The notes beneath the pieces were generated by a model, which had not been told where the DNA came from, did no database searches, and saw only the letters and a program-made list of their open reading frames with translations. Both the position numbers and the translations under genes were made by a program. A stretch of 64,000 nucleotides of DNA from Janthinobacterium sp. GW456P (lineage in GTDB: Bacteria > Pseudomonadota > Gammaproteobacteria > Burkholderiales > Burkholderiaceae_D), in the NCBI RefSeq assembly GCF_002127655.1, contig NZ_NEHB01000034.1:1-64000 (forward strand), read 5' to 3'. Positions 4,112-45,319 of this stretch are shown here, piece by piece; the first letter of the stretch is position 1, and the number at the start of each line of letters is the position of its first letter.

Positions 4112-4936
4112 GTGAATTTCATCGATAAATTATCCGCCGCGTGGACGGCCAATAATTCCCTGCTGTGCGTGGGCCTGGACCCCGACCTGGCGAAACTGCC
4201 GGCCGAACTGCGCGACTTGCCTGATGGAATCACCACCTTTTGCACGCGCATCATCGACGCCACGGCCGACCTGGCCTGTGCCTTCAAGCCGCAGATCGCC
4301 TATTTTGCCGCGTTGGGCGCGGAAAAGCAGCTGGAAGACATCTGCCGCTACATGCGCGAAAATTACCCGCACATCCCGCTGATTCTCGATGCAAAACGGG
4401 GCGACATCGGCGCGACAGCCACGCAATACGCGCGCGAAGCGTTCGAACGCTACGGCGCCGACGCCGTTACCGTGAACCCCTACATGGGCGAGGATTCGCT
4501 CGACCCCTACCTGGCGTGGAAAGACCGCGGCGTGATCATCCTGTGCCGCACCTCCAACCCGGGCGGCTCGGACCTGCAATTCCTGAATACGGACGGCGAA
4601 CCGCTGTACCAGCGCGTGGCGCGCCTGGTGGCCGAGAAATGGAACAAGAATGGCCAGTGCGCGCTCGTCGTCGGCGCTACTTTCCCTGAAGAACTGGCGC
4701 AAGTGCGCGCCATCGTCGGCGACATGCCGCTGCTGGTGCCCGGCATCGGCGCCCAGGGCGGCGATATCGCCGCCACCGTCGGCGCGGGCCAGACGGCGCA
4801 CGGCATGGGCATGATGATCAGCTCCTCGCGCGCCATCATCTACGCCGCGCCGCAGGACGGCGAAGACTGGGCCGACGCGGCGCGCCGCGTGGCCATTGAA
4901 ACGCGCGATGCGATCAATGCGCATCGTTCGGTTTAA
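4112..4936 (+). CDS. pyrF: Orotidine 5'-phosphate decarboxylase
   Basis: 274 residues, the length of the longer (type 2) OMP decarboxylases found in betaproteobacteria. It catalyses the last step of de novo UMP synthesis, OMP to UMP plus CO2, in the cytosol. The catalytic DAKRGD motif is at 93-98 with Lys95. The substrate-binding CVGLDPD is at 19-25, and a glycine-rich PGIGAQGGD loop lies near the C-terminus. Initiation is at GTG 4112 with AGAAGG about seven bases upstream. It is convergent with sbcB. The gap between them holds one copy of the dispersed element described at 4961. Confidence 0.96.
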
Positions 4937-4960: not shown

Positions 4961-5078
4961 GCGCCTGACAAAACCGTAGCGAGCGGAAGGGAGAGGTGGC
5001 CGAGAAGCGCAACCGTACTGAAGTACGGTGAGCATCGCAGGCCACCTATACCGACGCGCAGTAGGTTTGGTTAGGTGC
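4961..5078 (-). repeat. Dispersed stem-ended element, copy A
   Basis: About 118 bp with imperfect terminal inverted repeats: GCGCCTGACAAAACC at the left and GCACCTAACCAAACC reading in from the right. Read leftward, it has the same core as the copies at 19708, 42249 and 45185, including CTACTGCGCGTCGG near the start, GATGCTCACCG in the middle and CCGCTCGCTACGG at the end. On this strand it begins 2 nt after the sbcB stop codon. Confidence 0.85.
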
Positions 5079-5080
5079 AA

Positions 5081-6529
5081 CTAATCGCGCATGGGCGCGA
5101 CCATCTCCGCGTAATCGTACAGCTCGCCCAGAATCTCTTCCCCACGCTCATCGACGGATTCCGACAGCACGTCGATTTCCGTAAACAGCATCTCGATGGT
5201 GCGGGCGCCGCCGTCGCCGTCGAATAGTCGGGCGGCACGGTGCTGTTCCCAGCGCAGGCTTTCCGCTTCGCTCAGGGTTTGCGGGAAATTGCGGGCACGG
5301 TAGCGGAACAGCAATTCCTGCAGGCGTTCGTCGGCAAACGAGGGGCGGGCCGTGGCCAGCTTGGCCGGCGTGTCGCGGCGCAGCGATTCGAGCAGGCGGC
5401 GGTCGTCGTTGCTGACGAAACCGTTGTACAAATCCTCGTCCACGTCCAGGGCGACATTCGCGCCCGGGCGCTGGAAGACTTCGGCCCACAGCGCATCCAT
5501 GTTCGGCGCCGTCGCGGCCAGCTGTGCGTTGACCTTCGCCGCGTCCACGTCGATGCCCCATTGCGCCGCCATGGCCGGCGACAAGGTCTTTAAATTGCCG
5601 ACCAGCATGGGCGACTTGTTCAAATGTACGCTTTTCACGGGCAGGCGCGTCATGCCTTCGGGCATGGCTTCCTTGCGCGTGAACAGCCGCGTGCGGATGG
5701 TGTCGGCGTCCAGTTCGAACAGTTCGCGCGGATCGTAGGCGCAATCCCAGACGAGGATTTCATTTTTATTGCTCGGGTGCGTGGCCAGCGGCCAGACGAC
5801 GCCCAGGCAGCCCCGTTCGGCCGGGAACATGCCCGACACGTGCAGGAAGGGCTGGCGCTCACTGGCGGCCAGGTGCATGCCCATTTCGCTGGCGACCTTG
5901 TCTTTCTTGTGCAGGGCCAGGCAGAATTCGAACAGTTTCGGCTGTTTCTGCTTGATCAGGCGCGCCAGGGCGATGGTGGCGCGCACGTCGGACAGCGCAT
6001 CGTGCGCCGCTTCGTGGATCAGGCCATTGGCCTTGCTCAGGTGTTCCAGTCTGAAACTGGTCTGGCCATCGTCGCGCTTCGGCCATTGAATGCCTTCCGG
6101 GCGCAGCGCGTGCGTCATGCGCACCACGTCGAGGATGTCCCAGCGGCCGCAATGGTTTTTCCATTCGCGCGCGTACGGGTCGATCAGATTGCGCCAGAAC
6201 AGGAAACGCGTGACTTCATCGTCGAAACGGATGGTGTTGTAGCCGACGCCGATGGTGCCCGGTTCCGAAAAGGCCGCTTCGATGGTGGCGGCGAACTGGT
6301 GTTCTGGCACGCCCAGCTGCAGACATTGCTGCGGCGTGATGCCCGTGATCAGGCACGCTTGCGGATCGGGCAGGAAATCATTTGCAGGCTGGCAATACAG
6401 CATGATCGGTTCGCCGATCTCGTTGAGTTCGGCGTCCGTGCGGATGGCGGCGAATTGGGCCGGGCGGTCGCGGCGCGGCTGGGCGCCAAAGGTTTCGTAG
6501 TCGTGCCAAAGAAAGGTCTGGTTAGTCAT
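5081..6529 (-). CDS. sbcB: Exodeoxyribonuclease I
   Basis: 482 residues, the usual ExoI length. It degrades single-stranded DNA 3' to 5' in recombination and mismatch repair. The DEDDh exonuclease signature is complete: DYET near the N-terminus (Asp10, Glu12), a middle Asp in NTIRFDDEV, and HDALSDVRAT with the catalytic His and Asp. The SH3-like and C-terminal helical ExoI domains follow (GCLGVVWPLATHPSNKNE onwards). The ATG is MTNQTFLWHD. The stop lies 2 nt before copy A of the dispersed element. No partner repair gene is adjacent. Confidence 0.95.
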   Translation of the reverse strand: MTNQTFLWHDYETFGAQPRRDRPAQFAAIRTDAELNEIGEPIMLYCQPANDFLPDPQACLITGITPQQCLQLGVPEHQFAATIEAAFSEPGTIGVGYNTIRFDDEVTRFLFWRNLIDPYAREWKNHCGRWDILDVVRMTHALRPEGIQWPKRDDGQTSFRLEHLSKANGLIHEAAHDALSDVRATIALARLIKQKQPKLFEFCLALHKKDKVASEMGMHLAASERQPFLHVSGMFPAERGCLGVVWPLATHPSNKNEILVWDCAYDPRELFELDADTIRTRLFTRKEAMPEGMTRLPVKSVHLNKSPMLVGNLKTLSPAMAAQWGIDVDAAKVNAQLAATAPNMDALWAEVFQRPGANVALDVDEDLYNGFVSNDDRRLLESLRRDTPAKLATARPSFADERLQELLFRYRARNFPQTLSEAESLRWEQHRAARLFDGDGGARTIEMLFTEIDVLSESVDERGEEILGELYDYAEMVAPMRD

Positions 6530-19411: not shown

Positions 19412-19705
19412 ATGGAAAATTTATATAACGTCCTCGGTGTCGCGCCCAATGCCAGCGACGATGAAATCAAGAAGGTTTACCGTTCGCTGGCCATGCGCTA
19501 CCACCCCGACCGCAACCAGGCCCCCGGCGCCGAGGCGCGCTTCAAGAGCGTCACCAAGGCCTACGAGATCCTGGCCGACCCGGCCAAGCGCGCCGAATAC
19601 GACCAGAGCGTGAACCACCGCATCATCATCGATCCGGAAGCGGAAGCCTATGCCCTCTGGTGCGGCGTGTTCCGCTTGCATGGTACGGTATTGCCAGCCG
19701 ATTGA
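19412..19705 (+). CDS. Short J-domain (DnaJ-like) protein
   Basis: 97 residues. Residues 3-68 are a complete J-domain with HPD at 31-33 and the [16 protein letters not shown] helix, which should stimulate an Hsp70 ATPase. There is no Gly/Phe or zinc-finger region. The C-terminal 30 residues ([25 protein letters not shown]) are unlike standard DnaJ. CGGAG precedes the ATG. The stop is 2 nt before copy B of the dispersed element, and three unknown genes follow on the same strand. It is probably a specialised co-chaperone; the client is unknown. Confidence 0.85.
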
Positions 19706-19707
19706 GG

Positions 19708-19839
19708 GCGTCTCACATAGGCTACTGCGCGTCGTGACTTGCGGCCTGCGATGCTCACCGGCTCGGCGCCCCCGTACTAAACTACGGTTGCGCTTCTTAG
19801 CCACAATTCACTGCCGCTCGCTACGGTTCTGTGAGACGC
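19708..19839 (+). repeat. Dispersed stem-ended element, copy B
   Basis: 132 bp bounded by perfect terminal inverted repeats GCGTCTCACA / TGTGAGACGC. The core (CTACTGCGCGTCG, GCGGCCTGCGATGCTCACCG, CCGCTCGCTACGG) is shared with copies at 4961, 42249 and 45185. The terminal stem sequence differs from theirs. It begins 2 nt after the J-domain protein stop. Confidence 0.9.
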
Positions 19840-22155: not shown

Positions 22156-22270
22156 TGTCGGATTACGCCCTGCGGGCTAATCCGACCTACGCCGGCTGTT
22201 GCCGGATTCGCTTGCACCATCGACCTTATAGGTCGGCTTAGCTGCGGCACCGCCGCAGCGTAAGCCGACA
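22156..22270. repeat. REP-like palindrome pair
   Basis: Two imperfect palindromes: TGTCGGATTACGC...GCTAATCCGACCTACG at 22157-22191, and TAGGTCGGCTTAGC...GCGTAAGCCGACA at 22229-22270. Together they resemble the REP/BIME elements seen after genes in many proteobacteria. The same family recurs at 28633. Confidence 0.8.
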
Positions 22271-27892: not shown

Positions 27893-28636
27893 ATGTGGCC
27901 CTATCCACGTACTCTGGCACACCGCGGCGGCGGCACCCTGGCGCCTGAAAACACCCTGGCCGCCCTGCGCTGCGGCCTGGCCTACGGCTATCGCGCCGTG
28001 GAATTCGACGTCATGCTGGCGTCCGACGGCGTCCCCGTCGTCGTGCACGACCCCGAACTGGGCCGCACGGTGGCCGGCAGCGGTCATGTCAACGACTACA
28101 CGGCAGCGCAGCTGGGGGCCATGGAGGCGGGCGCCTGGTTCGGCCCGCAGTTTGCGGGCGAGGGCGTGCCCACGTTCGAGGCCGTGGTGGCGTATTGCAA
28201 GGCGCAGCACATCTGGATGAATATCGAAATCAAGCCGGCACCCGGCTTCGACGTGCCGACGGGCGAGACGGTGGCGCGGGCCACGCGCGATTATTTTGCA
28301 AAGGAACTGACTGCCGGAGAATTGCTGCCGCTGCTATCATCGTTCAGCATCGCGGCATTGGAAGCGGCGCGCGCGGCGGCGCCGGAACTGGCGCGCGGCT
28401 GGCTGGTCGAACAGATACCGGATGACTGGGCGCGCACGGCAAAGGCGCTGGACGTGGTGGCGCTCCATTGCGACCACCAGCAACTGACGCCGGCACTGGC
28501 GCGACAGGTAAAGGAGGCGGGATACGGGCTGTTCTGCTACACCGTCAACACGCCCGAACGGGCCAGCGAACTGCTGGCTTGGGGCGTAGACGGCTTTTGT
28601 ACGGACCGGATCGATATGATTCCCGCCATGGCGTAG
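27893..28636 (+). CDS. ugpQ: Glycerophosphodiester phosphodiesterase
   Basis: 247 residues from ATG 27893, with AAAGGA eight bases upstream. It hydrolyses glycerophosphodiesters to sn-glycerol 3-phosphate and an alcohol in the cytosol. The GDPD signature is complete: AHRGGGTLAPENTLAA at the N-terminus (catalytic His), EFDVMLASDGVPVVVHDPELGRT (Glu/Asp metal ligands and second His), and NIEIKP. It ends in the ACYTVN-like FCYTVNTPERA and WGVDGFCTDR motifs. It stands alone, with no ugpBAEC beside it. REP-like palindromes follow the stop. Confidence 0.93.
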   Translation: MWPYPRTLAHRGGGTLAPENTLAALRCGLAYGYRAVEFDVMLASDGVPVVVHDPELGRTVAGSGHVNDYTAAQLGAMEAGAWFGPQFAGEGVPTFEAVVAYCKAQHIWMNIEIKPAPGFDVPTGETVARATRDYFAKELTAGELLPLLSSFSIAALEAARAAAPELARGWLVEQIPDDWARTAKALDVVALHCDHQQLTPALARQVKEAGYGLFCYTVNTPERASELLAWGVDGFCTDRIDMIPAMA

Positions 28637-28771
28637 GTCGGATTAGCGGGGCTGTCGAGGCGTAGCGTAATCCGACAACATTGTTGGCACGGAGCGTGGT
28701 GTTGTCGGCTTACGCGCTTACGCGCTTACGCGCTTACGCGCTTACGCGCTTGCGCGCTAAGCCGACCTACG
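28633..28771. repeat. REP-like palindrome pair with internal microsatellite
   Basis: GTAGGTCGGATTAGC...GCGTAATCCGACA (28633-28677) and TGTCGGCTTACGC...GCTAAGCCGACCTAC (28703-28771). It is the same family as at 22156, and the outer ends form one long inverted repeat. It overlaps the last bases of ugpQ and ends just before the ZnuD-like gene stop (convergent). Confidence 0.85.
28708..28755 (+). repeat. 8-bp microsatellite (GCTTACGC)n
   Basis: Five perfect copies of GCTTACGC (28708-28747) and one variant, GCTTGCGC (28748-28755), expand the loop side of a REP palindrome. Not coding. Confidence 0.95.
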
Positions 28772-42238: not shown

Positions 42239-42248
42239 CCCGGTGACA

Positions 42249-42362
42249 CCGGATCAAACCTGCTGCGCGTCGGTATGGGCGGCCTGCGATGCTCACCGTG
42301 CTAGAGCACGGTTGTGCTTCTCGGCCACCTCTCCCTTCCGCTCGCGACGGTTTTATCCGGCG
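42249..42362 (+). repeat. Dispersed stem-ended element, copy C
   Basis: About 114 bp between the rplS terminator and the Nudix gene. Ends: ACCGGATCAAACC at the left and GCCGGATAAAACC reading in from the right. It shares the core CTGCGCGTCGG, GCGGCCTGCGATGCTCACCG and CTCGGCCACCTCTCCCTTCC with the other copies, but has a different terminal stem. It is the only copy not directly after a stop codon. Confidence 0.85.
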
Positions 42363-42380
42363 TTGTAATGAGAGATAGCA

Positions 42381-44734: not shown

Positions 44735-45184
44735 ATGCGCATCGGCGATATCTGCACCCTGCACACCATCCATTGCCAGCGTGACACCAGCGTGCAGGAC
44801 GCCGCGCTGCTGATGCGCCAGCACCACGTGGGCGACCTGATCGTGGCCGAACAGCCGAACGGCGAGCGCGTTCCCATAGGCATCCTCACCGACCGCGACA
44901 TCGTCATTTCCGTCATCGCCCTCGGTCTCGATCCCGCCAGCCTGCTGGTGGGCGACATCATGAGCGCGCAGCTGCTCACGGCCAGCGAAGACGAAGACGT
45001 CTACGACATCATCGAACGCATGCGCGTCAACGGCATCCGCCGCTTGCCCGTGGTCAACAGCCTGGGCGCGCTGTCCGGCGTCGTCAGCATCGACGACCTG
45101 CTGGCCTTCCTTGCCCAGGAAATGGCCGAGCTGGCGCGCATCAGCAGCGGTCAGCTGGTGTACGAAAAGCGCACGCGCAAATAG
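44735..45184 (+). CDS. CBS domain-containing protein
   Basis: 149 residues with two tandem CBS motifs (about 5-65 and 75-135): MRIGDICTLHTIHCQRDTSVQDAALLMRQHHVGDLIVAE, GILTDRDIVISVIALGLDP, DIMSAQLLTASEDEDVYDIIERMRVNGIRRLPVV. Such stand-alone pairs bind adenine nucleotides and act as sensors or regulators. No enzyme domain is fused. The stop is directly followed by copy D of the dispersed element. Confidence 0.93.
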   Translation: MRIGDICTLHTIHCQRDTSVQDAALLMRQHHVGDLIVAEQPNGERVPIGILTDRDIVISVIALGLDPASLLVGDIMSAQLLTASEDEDVYDIIERMRVNGIRRLPVVNSLGALSGVVSIDDLLAFLAQEMAELARISSGQLVYEKRTRK

Positions 45185-45319
45185 GAACACCTGTCAAAAC
45201 CTACTGCGCGTCGCGTTTTGCGGTCGGCGATGCTCACCGGCTCGGCGCCCCCGTACACAGTACGTTTGCGCTTCTCAACCACAAATCACTGTCGCTCGCT
45301 ACGGTTTTGTCAGGTGTTC
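45185..45319 (+). repeat. Dispersed stem-ended element, copy D
   Basis: 135 bp with near-perfect 17-bp terminal inverted repeats: GAACACCTGTCAAAACC (45185-45201) and the inverse of GAACACCTGACAAAACC (45303-45319), one mismatch. The core is shared with copies A-C. The first base follows the last base of the CBS gene stop codon directly. Confidence 0.92.

Follow-up and report, generated by a model that had tools for sequence, protein, structure and literature searches.

The window analysed here, 64,000 nucleotides of Janthinobacterium sp. GW456P (contig C28 of a genome of 6.27 Mb in 78 contigs), holds four members of a family of imperfect palindromes of about 118-135 nt that are mostly seated, in one orientation, right beside the stop codons of genes, and whose paired arms are bound to the site where each copy lies. 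Hairpin repeats close to stops are a known kind, and the present family is unusual in degree, by its sharp one-sided seating and its site-bound arms. The seating, its polarity, the presence or absence of the element between relatives and the pairing of the arms all emerge from the comparison of sequences. The element would be a non-autonomous mobile palindromic repeat (REP/MITE-like) of the Betaproteobacteria, expanded in Janthinobacterium, a reading to which we give, jointly with the mechanism of movement proposed below, about an even chance of being correct. REP-like repeats have long been noted near the 3' ends of genes without a clear cause. With its modal distance of 2 nt, its single orientation, its use of all three stops, a control family and empty sites, this family is a clean case for telling targeting from purging, and it makes the question directly testable.

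All four copies listed in a preliminary description of the window were found again. Copy 1 (4961-5078, minus strand) has its left, stop-side end at 5078 and, read on the minus strand, the arms GCACCTAACCAAACC / GGTTTTGTCAGGCGC; it begins 2 nt after the TAG stop (5081-5083, minus strand) of an exonuclease I gene of the sbcB type (5081-6529, minus strand; RNase_T and Exonuc_X-T_C in Pfam), to which an OMP decarboxylase gene of the pyrF type (4112-4936, plus strand) is convergent. Copy 2 (19708-19839, plus strand; arms GCGTCTCACATAGGC / GGTTCTGTGAGACGC) begins 2 nt after the TGA stop of a DnaJ-domain gene (19412-19705, plus strand), and copy 4 (45185-45319, plus strand; arms GAACACCTGTCAAAACC / GGTTTTGTCAGGTGTTC) directly follows the TAG stop of a CBS-domain gene (44735-45184, plus strand), both genes being identified by gene calls and Pfam and both copies carrying a loop insert, GGCTCGGCGCCCC. 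These distances of 2, 2 and 0 nt, reckoned from the element starts of the preliminary description, are seen in open reading frames as well as in gene calls. Copy 3 is better bounded than before at about 42246-42363 (plus strand, ACACCGGATCAAACC...GGTTTTATCCGGCGT). Preceded by a hairpin with a T-run, it is not stop-seated but lies some 59 nt downstream of the ribosomal protein L19 gene (41683-42186, plus strand); the 574 nt reported for it arose because our own simple codon-usage caller, with which genes were called and which missed at least one gene, had missed L19. Elsewhere the window begins with two perfect 66-nt tandem copies (1-132), has a match of 53 bits to the Betaproteobacteria toxic small RNA (Rfam RF02278; 1002-1065, minus strand), a tandem array of the 8-mer GCTTACGC (28700-28763), and two GTAG-tagged REP copies (GTAGGTCGGATTA) at 22178-22190 (minus strand) and 28633-28645 (plus strand).

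Read in one orientation, column counts describe the element as R-ACRCC-TGACC-AAACC-TRCTGCGCGKCG ... GGCCTGCGATGCTCACCGTAC-loop-GTACGGTTGCGCTTCTCGGCCAC ... CCGCTCGCTACGG-TTTTGTCAGGYGT-Y-GTNA. Most copies agree at nearly all positions over much of the core. The arms, of about 15 nt, vary in sequence and keep their pairing inside each copy. The ends are R-ACRCC...GGYGT-Y-GTNA, the right-end consensus being Y-G-T-N-A, and GTAG occurs on the minus strand internally only. The loop insert GGCTCGGCGCCCC was met by pattern in 8 of the 80 copies of the own genome, with its reverse complement inside 4; locus L013 holds both, a possible trace of fold-back copying. Those 80 copies, all with usable flanks, come from a search with a profile of 118 positions and are not an exhaustive count: 272 hits in all fetched loci gave 211 distinct elements, the 80 included, after filtering (score of at least 45, profile start at most 20, profile end at least 100, flanks of no less than 300 nt before and 250 nt after the element, and removal of duplicates). 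BLAST with copy 4 had pointed to 41 near-full places, 40 of 116 first-look candidates having been scored. The exact core GATGCTCACCG occurs 46 times in the genome, against 0 for a reversed control; at least one of the 46, in L041, is plain coding-like sequence and not a copy, and patterns for half elements exposed further copies beyond the exact-core matches.

That the element sits after stops in a fixed orientation, proposed at first from three copies, holds throughout the genome. The left end lies between -12 and +9 nt from the stop of the sense gene in 57 of the 80 copies, and at exactly 2 nt in 23; the stops used are TAA (23), TAG (19) and TGA (15). The gene on the left is sense in 63 cases, antisense in 16 and absent in one (binomial p 9e-8), and the gene on the right is unbiased (39 sense, 41 antisense; p 0.91). 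Placement at random relative to stops does not describe these data: a uniform distribution within the gaps would seat 13.1 (sd 2.75) of the 63 sense-left copies where 57 are seated, and none of the 63 lies 10-50 nt from the stop, two copies of other genera being found at 38 and 45 nt. Other genomes have 99 of 131 copies seated, and one copy per site over all genomes gives 108 of 146. At codirectional sites, 61 of 67 are seated for 7.7 expected under uniform placement; the right end meets a convergent stop in only 2 of 41 cases in the own genome, 7 of 63 in other genomes and 6 of 70 taking one per site. There remain 23 of the 80 own copies away from any called stop, and the called stops range from -9 to +9 nt around the boundary, a spread that led us to reject a simple motif at fixed distance.

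Could purifying selection alone produce this arrangement? Insertion would then be random, or weakly guided by a motif, and the survivors would be those at the 3' border of genes, since intergenic regions are packed with promoters and terminators. No copy out of 211 is wholly spanned by a gene call (a looser earlier pass had flagged 1 of 106, and a simple anchor count, with a narrower definition, labelled 17 of 159 as inside one), as such purging predicts, and other repeats gather at 3' ends too. Among the latter are the GTAG REPs, a separate family in the same genome with 71 pattern hits, for which 30 loci were fetched and 25 kept after removal of duplicates: 22 of their 39 facing-stop distances are 26 nt or less. 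A facing stop falls within -12 to +9 on either side in only 6 of these 25, however, as compared with 57 of 80 for the element (Fisher p 4e-5), with the reservation that the ends of these REPs are more roughly defined. Closeness to stops is therefore shared, in a looser form, while the tight one-sided seat is not. This control replaced a first one, made with other repeats in the same loci, that was biased by orthologous loci; there the counts within -12 to +9 were 6 of 27 for GTAG REPs, 5 of 44 sense-left for GGGGTCRGACCC and 9 of 22 for the terminator motif AATGCCGGGC. Against purging stand also the emptiness of the interval from 10 to 50 nt in the own genome, with the few exceptions elsewhere, and the convergent gaps, which are equally well seated (44 of 48, for 18.4 expected under uniform placement). 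Well-paired copies, whose arms have one mismatch or none (55 of 73 seated), do not clearly differ in seating from those with at least three mismatches (21 of 31), a further point against purging, though immediate purging would leave no mark there; nor is there a clear difference between sites shared by several genomes (31 of 38) and sites seen once (77 of 108). Altogether we regard purifying selection acting alone as possible but rather unlikely.

Comparison with relatives agrees with seating at stops that were already in place. Empty orthologous sites, read by eye among the loci listed, match about 14 of the stop-seated insertions, their flanks being some 72-98% identical, and in about 11 of these comparisons the native stop stands at the same codon position, hence predating the insert. 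In about three (L148/L193, L016 and L291) it is the element that provides the stop, at most a few codons away from the native position, in its left arm (ACACCTGA / ACGCCTAA). Among readable loci orthologous to that of copy 4, those of G000 and G038 contain the element and many others lack it; the end of the CBS-domain gene reads AAATAAGCC in G004 and AAATAGGAAGCG in G030, both empty, as against AAATAGGAACACC in the window, and CATCTATAAGGAGC in L147. At the exonuclease site, several loci that seem empty hold other inserts: behind the exonuclease stop, GTAG REPs, GGGGTCAGACCC repeats or the AATGCCGGGC terminator-like hairpin occur in other species (L267-L295), so that this spot receives several families. 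In G006 (L291) a copy lies in the same intergenic region as the window copy at the exonuclease stop, at the end of the pyrF-type gene and in the opposite orientation.

A duplication of the target was looked for and not found. The same stop triplet recurs within 12 nt to the right of the element in 21 of 100 cases, for 20.0 in shuffled data, and a scan for direct repeats over 96 combinations of offsets revealed no consistent register, only scattered high cells (best z 3.9, 7 of 146). An apparent TAA on both sides, in the comparison of L128 with L147, failed to hold across sites. The idea that the arms were host palindromes existing before insertion was likewise dropped, none being present in the empty sites read.

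The copies that are away from stops are instructive as to the target. A TAA, TAG or TGA triplet is found inside the 9-nt window at their left boundary in 26 of 38, compared with 68 of 304 control windows (Fisher p 2e-8); the motif therefore matters in the absence of translation, and a stop-like triplet would be part of the target. Of the 734 stop-like triplets that the window has outside gene calls, 56 are true stops (about 7.6%, a value that missed genes bias low), as against the 71% seen at the element, so that neither the triplet alone nor a motif combined with mild selection fully explains the seating. Either non-stop positions are purged very efficiently, or some further mark distinguishes true stops. 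A stronger version of the latter, in which the machinery of a mobile element recognises translational stops, with strand polarity and beyond the triplet, the arms being rewritten to match at each site and the hairpin sometimes including the host stop, appears to us unlikely.

Let us now turn to the arms. Over 146 sites, with one copy each, Watson-Crick pairs exceed those of shuffles (z 4-14) in each column between position 12 on the inner side of the ACRCC boundary and position 2 on its outer side; outside it, the excess is clear at +1 (z 5.4) and +2 (z 4.0), weak at the third position (z 1.9) and absent further on. In the consensus structure of 139 sites, 348 of 4164 cells are Watson-Crick pairs with a double substitution, and such cells extend to the inner stem and to the apical hairpin. 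Terminal inverted repeats are thus present in the sense that arms pair within copies, without being constant between them: the stems are not identical among copies. The first portrayal of these ends as copy-specific stands as to their pairing, which goes far beyond shuffles, and needs to be tempered as to their being peculiar to one copy, because arms within the genus scatter around a consensus (ACACCTGACCAAACC) with paired changes.

These changes can be compared with those of the core. For this, 167 same-genus copies of set length were taken, at 112 sites of which 33 have several copies. Two arms from one site (93 pairs) share 87% identity and two from different sites (6216 pairs) 65%, the values for cores being 92% and 80%, respectively. 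When cores of different sites are at least 95% identical (514 pairs) the arms are still only 69% identical, while within-site pairs with cores below 85% (14 pairs) keep an arm identity of 86%. Arms are therefore tied to their site, whereas cores can in part be exchanged; the correlation of arm identity with core identity across sites is only r 0.34. The divergence of arm and core, 0.127:0.077 within sites and 0.348:0.197 between sites, has a similar ratio in both settings, a result more in keeping with gradual, compensated drift than with arms rebuilt whenever the element inserts.

Outside Janthinobacterium, at 26 loci (Massilia, Pseudoduganella, Undibacterium, Herbaspirillum, Ralstonia, Zoogloea and others), left arms share 36% identity between sites, and pairing with the own partner reaches a mean of 17.5 of 31 positions (10-24), as against 12.0 (maximum 22) for partners from other sites. 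At some sites of this group the palindrome extends into the host stop, as in TAAG...CTTA (L165), TGA...TCA (L159) and TTTAATT...AATTAAA (L162). Such extension, together with the pairing at the two positions outside the arm and the loop insert found also as its reverse complement inside some copies, would be expected if matched arms came from fold-back copying (quasipalindrome template switching), or from rebuilding at insertion, and not from selection for the stem. A common C.T mismatch persists at arm position 9 nonetheless (left C in 68 of 146 sites, right T in 121, Watson-Crick in only 75), and the constant ratio of arm to core divergence is what drift in place predicts. We hold this origin of the arms to be somewhat doubtful. 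The choice offered at the outset between selection for the stem and a copying process that rebuilds both ends is not fully separated by these figures, which lean to compensated drift in place.

The folding of the element was computed for 139 of the 146 sites, retained by length and score. On the plus strand the predicted RNA fold is stable, with a mean MFE of -55.4 kcal/mol, and this, with the sharp proximity to stops, the fixed orientation and the precedent of E. coli REPs near stops (PMC12306157), would suit a cis-acting RNA element of the 3' end, a hairpin selected after stops because it stalls ribosomes at termination, or because it shields the end of the mRNA or takes part in its processing. 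Several features are at variance with that function. Mismatches in the arms of the plus strand are more often A.C (83) than G.T (37), or 45 and 33 without the two consensus mismatch positions, so that the transcribed strand does not look shaped by RNA wobble; even with RNA parameters it is the opposite strand that folds better, in 132 of 139 sites; the 23 own copies away from called stops and the sites empty in relatives sit badly with it. No run of five T within 15 nt follows the element on the plus strand in any of the 139 sites (1 of 139 on the other strand), and a terminator function was rejected on this account. At the gathering threshold Rfam has nothing over the element in the window, and in six loci, with E up to 5, its six hits all fall elsewhere. 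An RNA role as the reason for the seating seems to us improbable.

With DNA parameters it is the bottom strand that has the more stable fold, in 138 of the 139 sites. This preference, and the missing target-site duplication, might suggest a recombinase of another kind than the HUH enzymes, acting for example on the folded bottom strand as the integron integrase does on attC. About 5.3 of the 6.8 kcal/mol of advantage come from the shared core, however, and the bias is equal in all gene contexts; it is one shared property, close to a single observation, and not 139 independent ones. We accordingly ceased to count it as strong evidence for a single-strand DNA substrate, and such a recombinase is the least probable of the explanations considered, very unlikely in our view.

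The core pattern, a strict one that misses divergent copies, was recovered from 32 of the 40 genomes of the genus and, in a sample of the order, from 4 of 300, the own genome being included in both; named records with the core belong to several genera, mostly Janthinobacterium among the matches listed. At the exonuclease gene, the eight genomes that lack the pattern diverge more than all the others (69-76% identity, as against at least 80%), and three of them are less than 90% complete. In distant Betaproteobacteria (L175:6541-6915, L151:4571-4948, L162:3178-3741, L088:1549-2112) the element follows a gene which, from its C-terminal sequence, we take to be L7/L12-like, ahead of a long gene of rpoB size, and in two Herbaspirillum records a gene presumed on the same grounds to be AhpC-like.

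A transposase of the RAYT/TnpA-REP type, suggested as the possible mover, was searched for and no link emerged: none of the three Y1_Tnp loci of the own genome has a copy of the element in its flanks of about 1.5 kb by profile search, and Y1_Tnp genes exist in each of the 40 genomes of the genus, also in those eight, divergent and in part incomplete, that lack the core pattern, so that their presence does not appear to track the element. We set RAYT aside as the mover on this account. One Y1 transposase (L033), next to a gene that is presumably gltB-like, is flanked by GGGTCAGAGTCG / CGACTCCGACCC repeats, and matches of similar size exist in many same-genus genomes. A long autonomous version was sought in the own genome with half elements: of the 121 left halves, the 100 listed gave 53 left-right pairs within 160 nt, and four pairs 161-6000 nt apart, all of which came from complete copies.

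As for the enzyme, the strand that moves and the reason why true stops are favoured, the account that follows is inferred. The element would move as a folded single strand, cut by an enzyme of the HUH/Y1 type supplied in trans, which would recognise the hairpin together with a triplet resembling a stop: T-R-R on the host side at the left, T-N-A at the right end of the element. By analogy, insertion could resemble the placement of IS200/IS605 elements 3' of a short motif. Insertions at genuine stops would survive best, because they spare the coding sequence and the downstream signals; thereafter the cores would stay similar, exchange between copies being one possible cause, and the arms would drift, a change in one compensated by a change in the other. 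This mechanism has to reckon with the lack of a cognate transposase and of a long autonomous version among the sequences searched, with a distance to the stop that is not fixed, with the like seating of well-paired and degraded copies, and with a target logic that suggests the top strand while the bottom strand folds better. At the majority of sites the element probably does nothing essential, but a hairpin placed directly behind a stop could influence termination or the ends of mRNAs. More than 100 site-bound hairpins with compensatory arms are a resource for finding the mobilising enzyme.

How does the element compare with known systems? It shares with the REPs associated with RAYTs or tagged by GTAG, and with REPINs, the dispersed intergenic palindromes near 3' gene ends, the absence of a gene inside and the termini that supply stops. 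It differs in size (118-135 nt, as against 20-40 nt) and in having neither a terminal GTAG or CGTC tag nor, as far as was found, a linked RAYT, and the conserved core with variable arms is a feature of its own. Some E. coli REP/BIME repeats also lie close to the upstream stop; for the present element the distance peaks at 2 nt, and none of the sense-left copies of its own genome is found at 10-50 nt. Their structure and length are unlike those of the element. For E. coli, PMC12306157 cites an earlier study that, judging by how near they lie to a stop, proposed an effect on translation for 260 of 496 REPs, and counts in its own larger set 446 of 4,072 within 15 nt of a stop. A MITE of a DDE transposase would share the terminal inverted repeats, but no target-site duplication was found for the element, and no autonomous parent in its own genome. 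ERIC inserts at TA with duplication, which was not found here. By description, the likeness to ERIC (RU-1), a 127-bp enterobacterial palindrome, lies in size and in being a mobile intergenic repeat, one that can fuse to the 3' ends of genes (PMC2759123). Closer in its manner of insertion would be a derivative of IS200/IS605. These elements insert with strand polarity 3' of a short motif, without duplication, and have two subterminal hairpins. The present element is alike in polarity, motif, lack of duplication and hairpins, and differs in that one hairpin spans both ends and in that a cognate Y1 gene was not found. MIRU elements are located at overlaps of stop and start codons. Our literature search found no paper on palindromic repeat elements of Janthinobacterium, a statement limited to that search. 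REP dimers within palindromes, of which PMC3733652 gives H. neapolitanus CGTC-1 and A. variabilis GTAG-15, with one consensus per species, similarly frame a repeat by longer paired arms; those of the element are site-bound and absent from the empty sites read. Seating after stops with paired ends had been called other than a standard description, which is too strong as regards proximity to stops and termini that supply them, both known for REPs (PMC12306157; PMC3733652, which states that GTAG-REP termini 'often provide' the TAG stop; and PMC2817692, where REPs can sit immediately downstream of the rayt stop), and it is apt as regards the sharp one-sided seating and the site-bound arms, by which the element goes further than these systems in degree.
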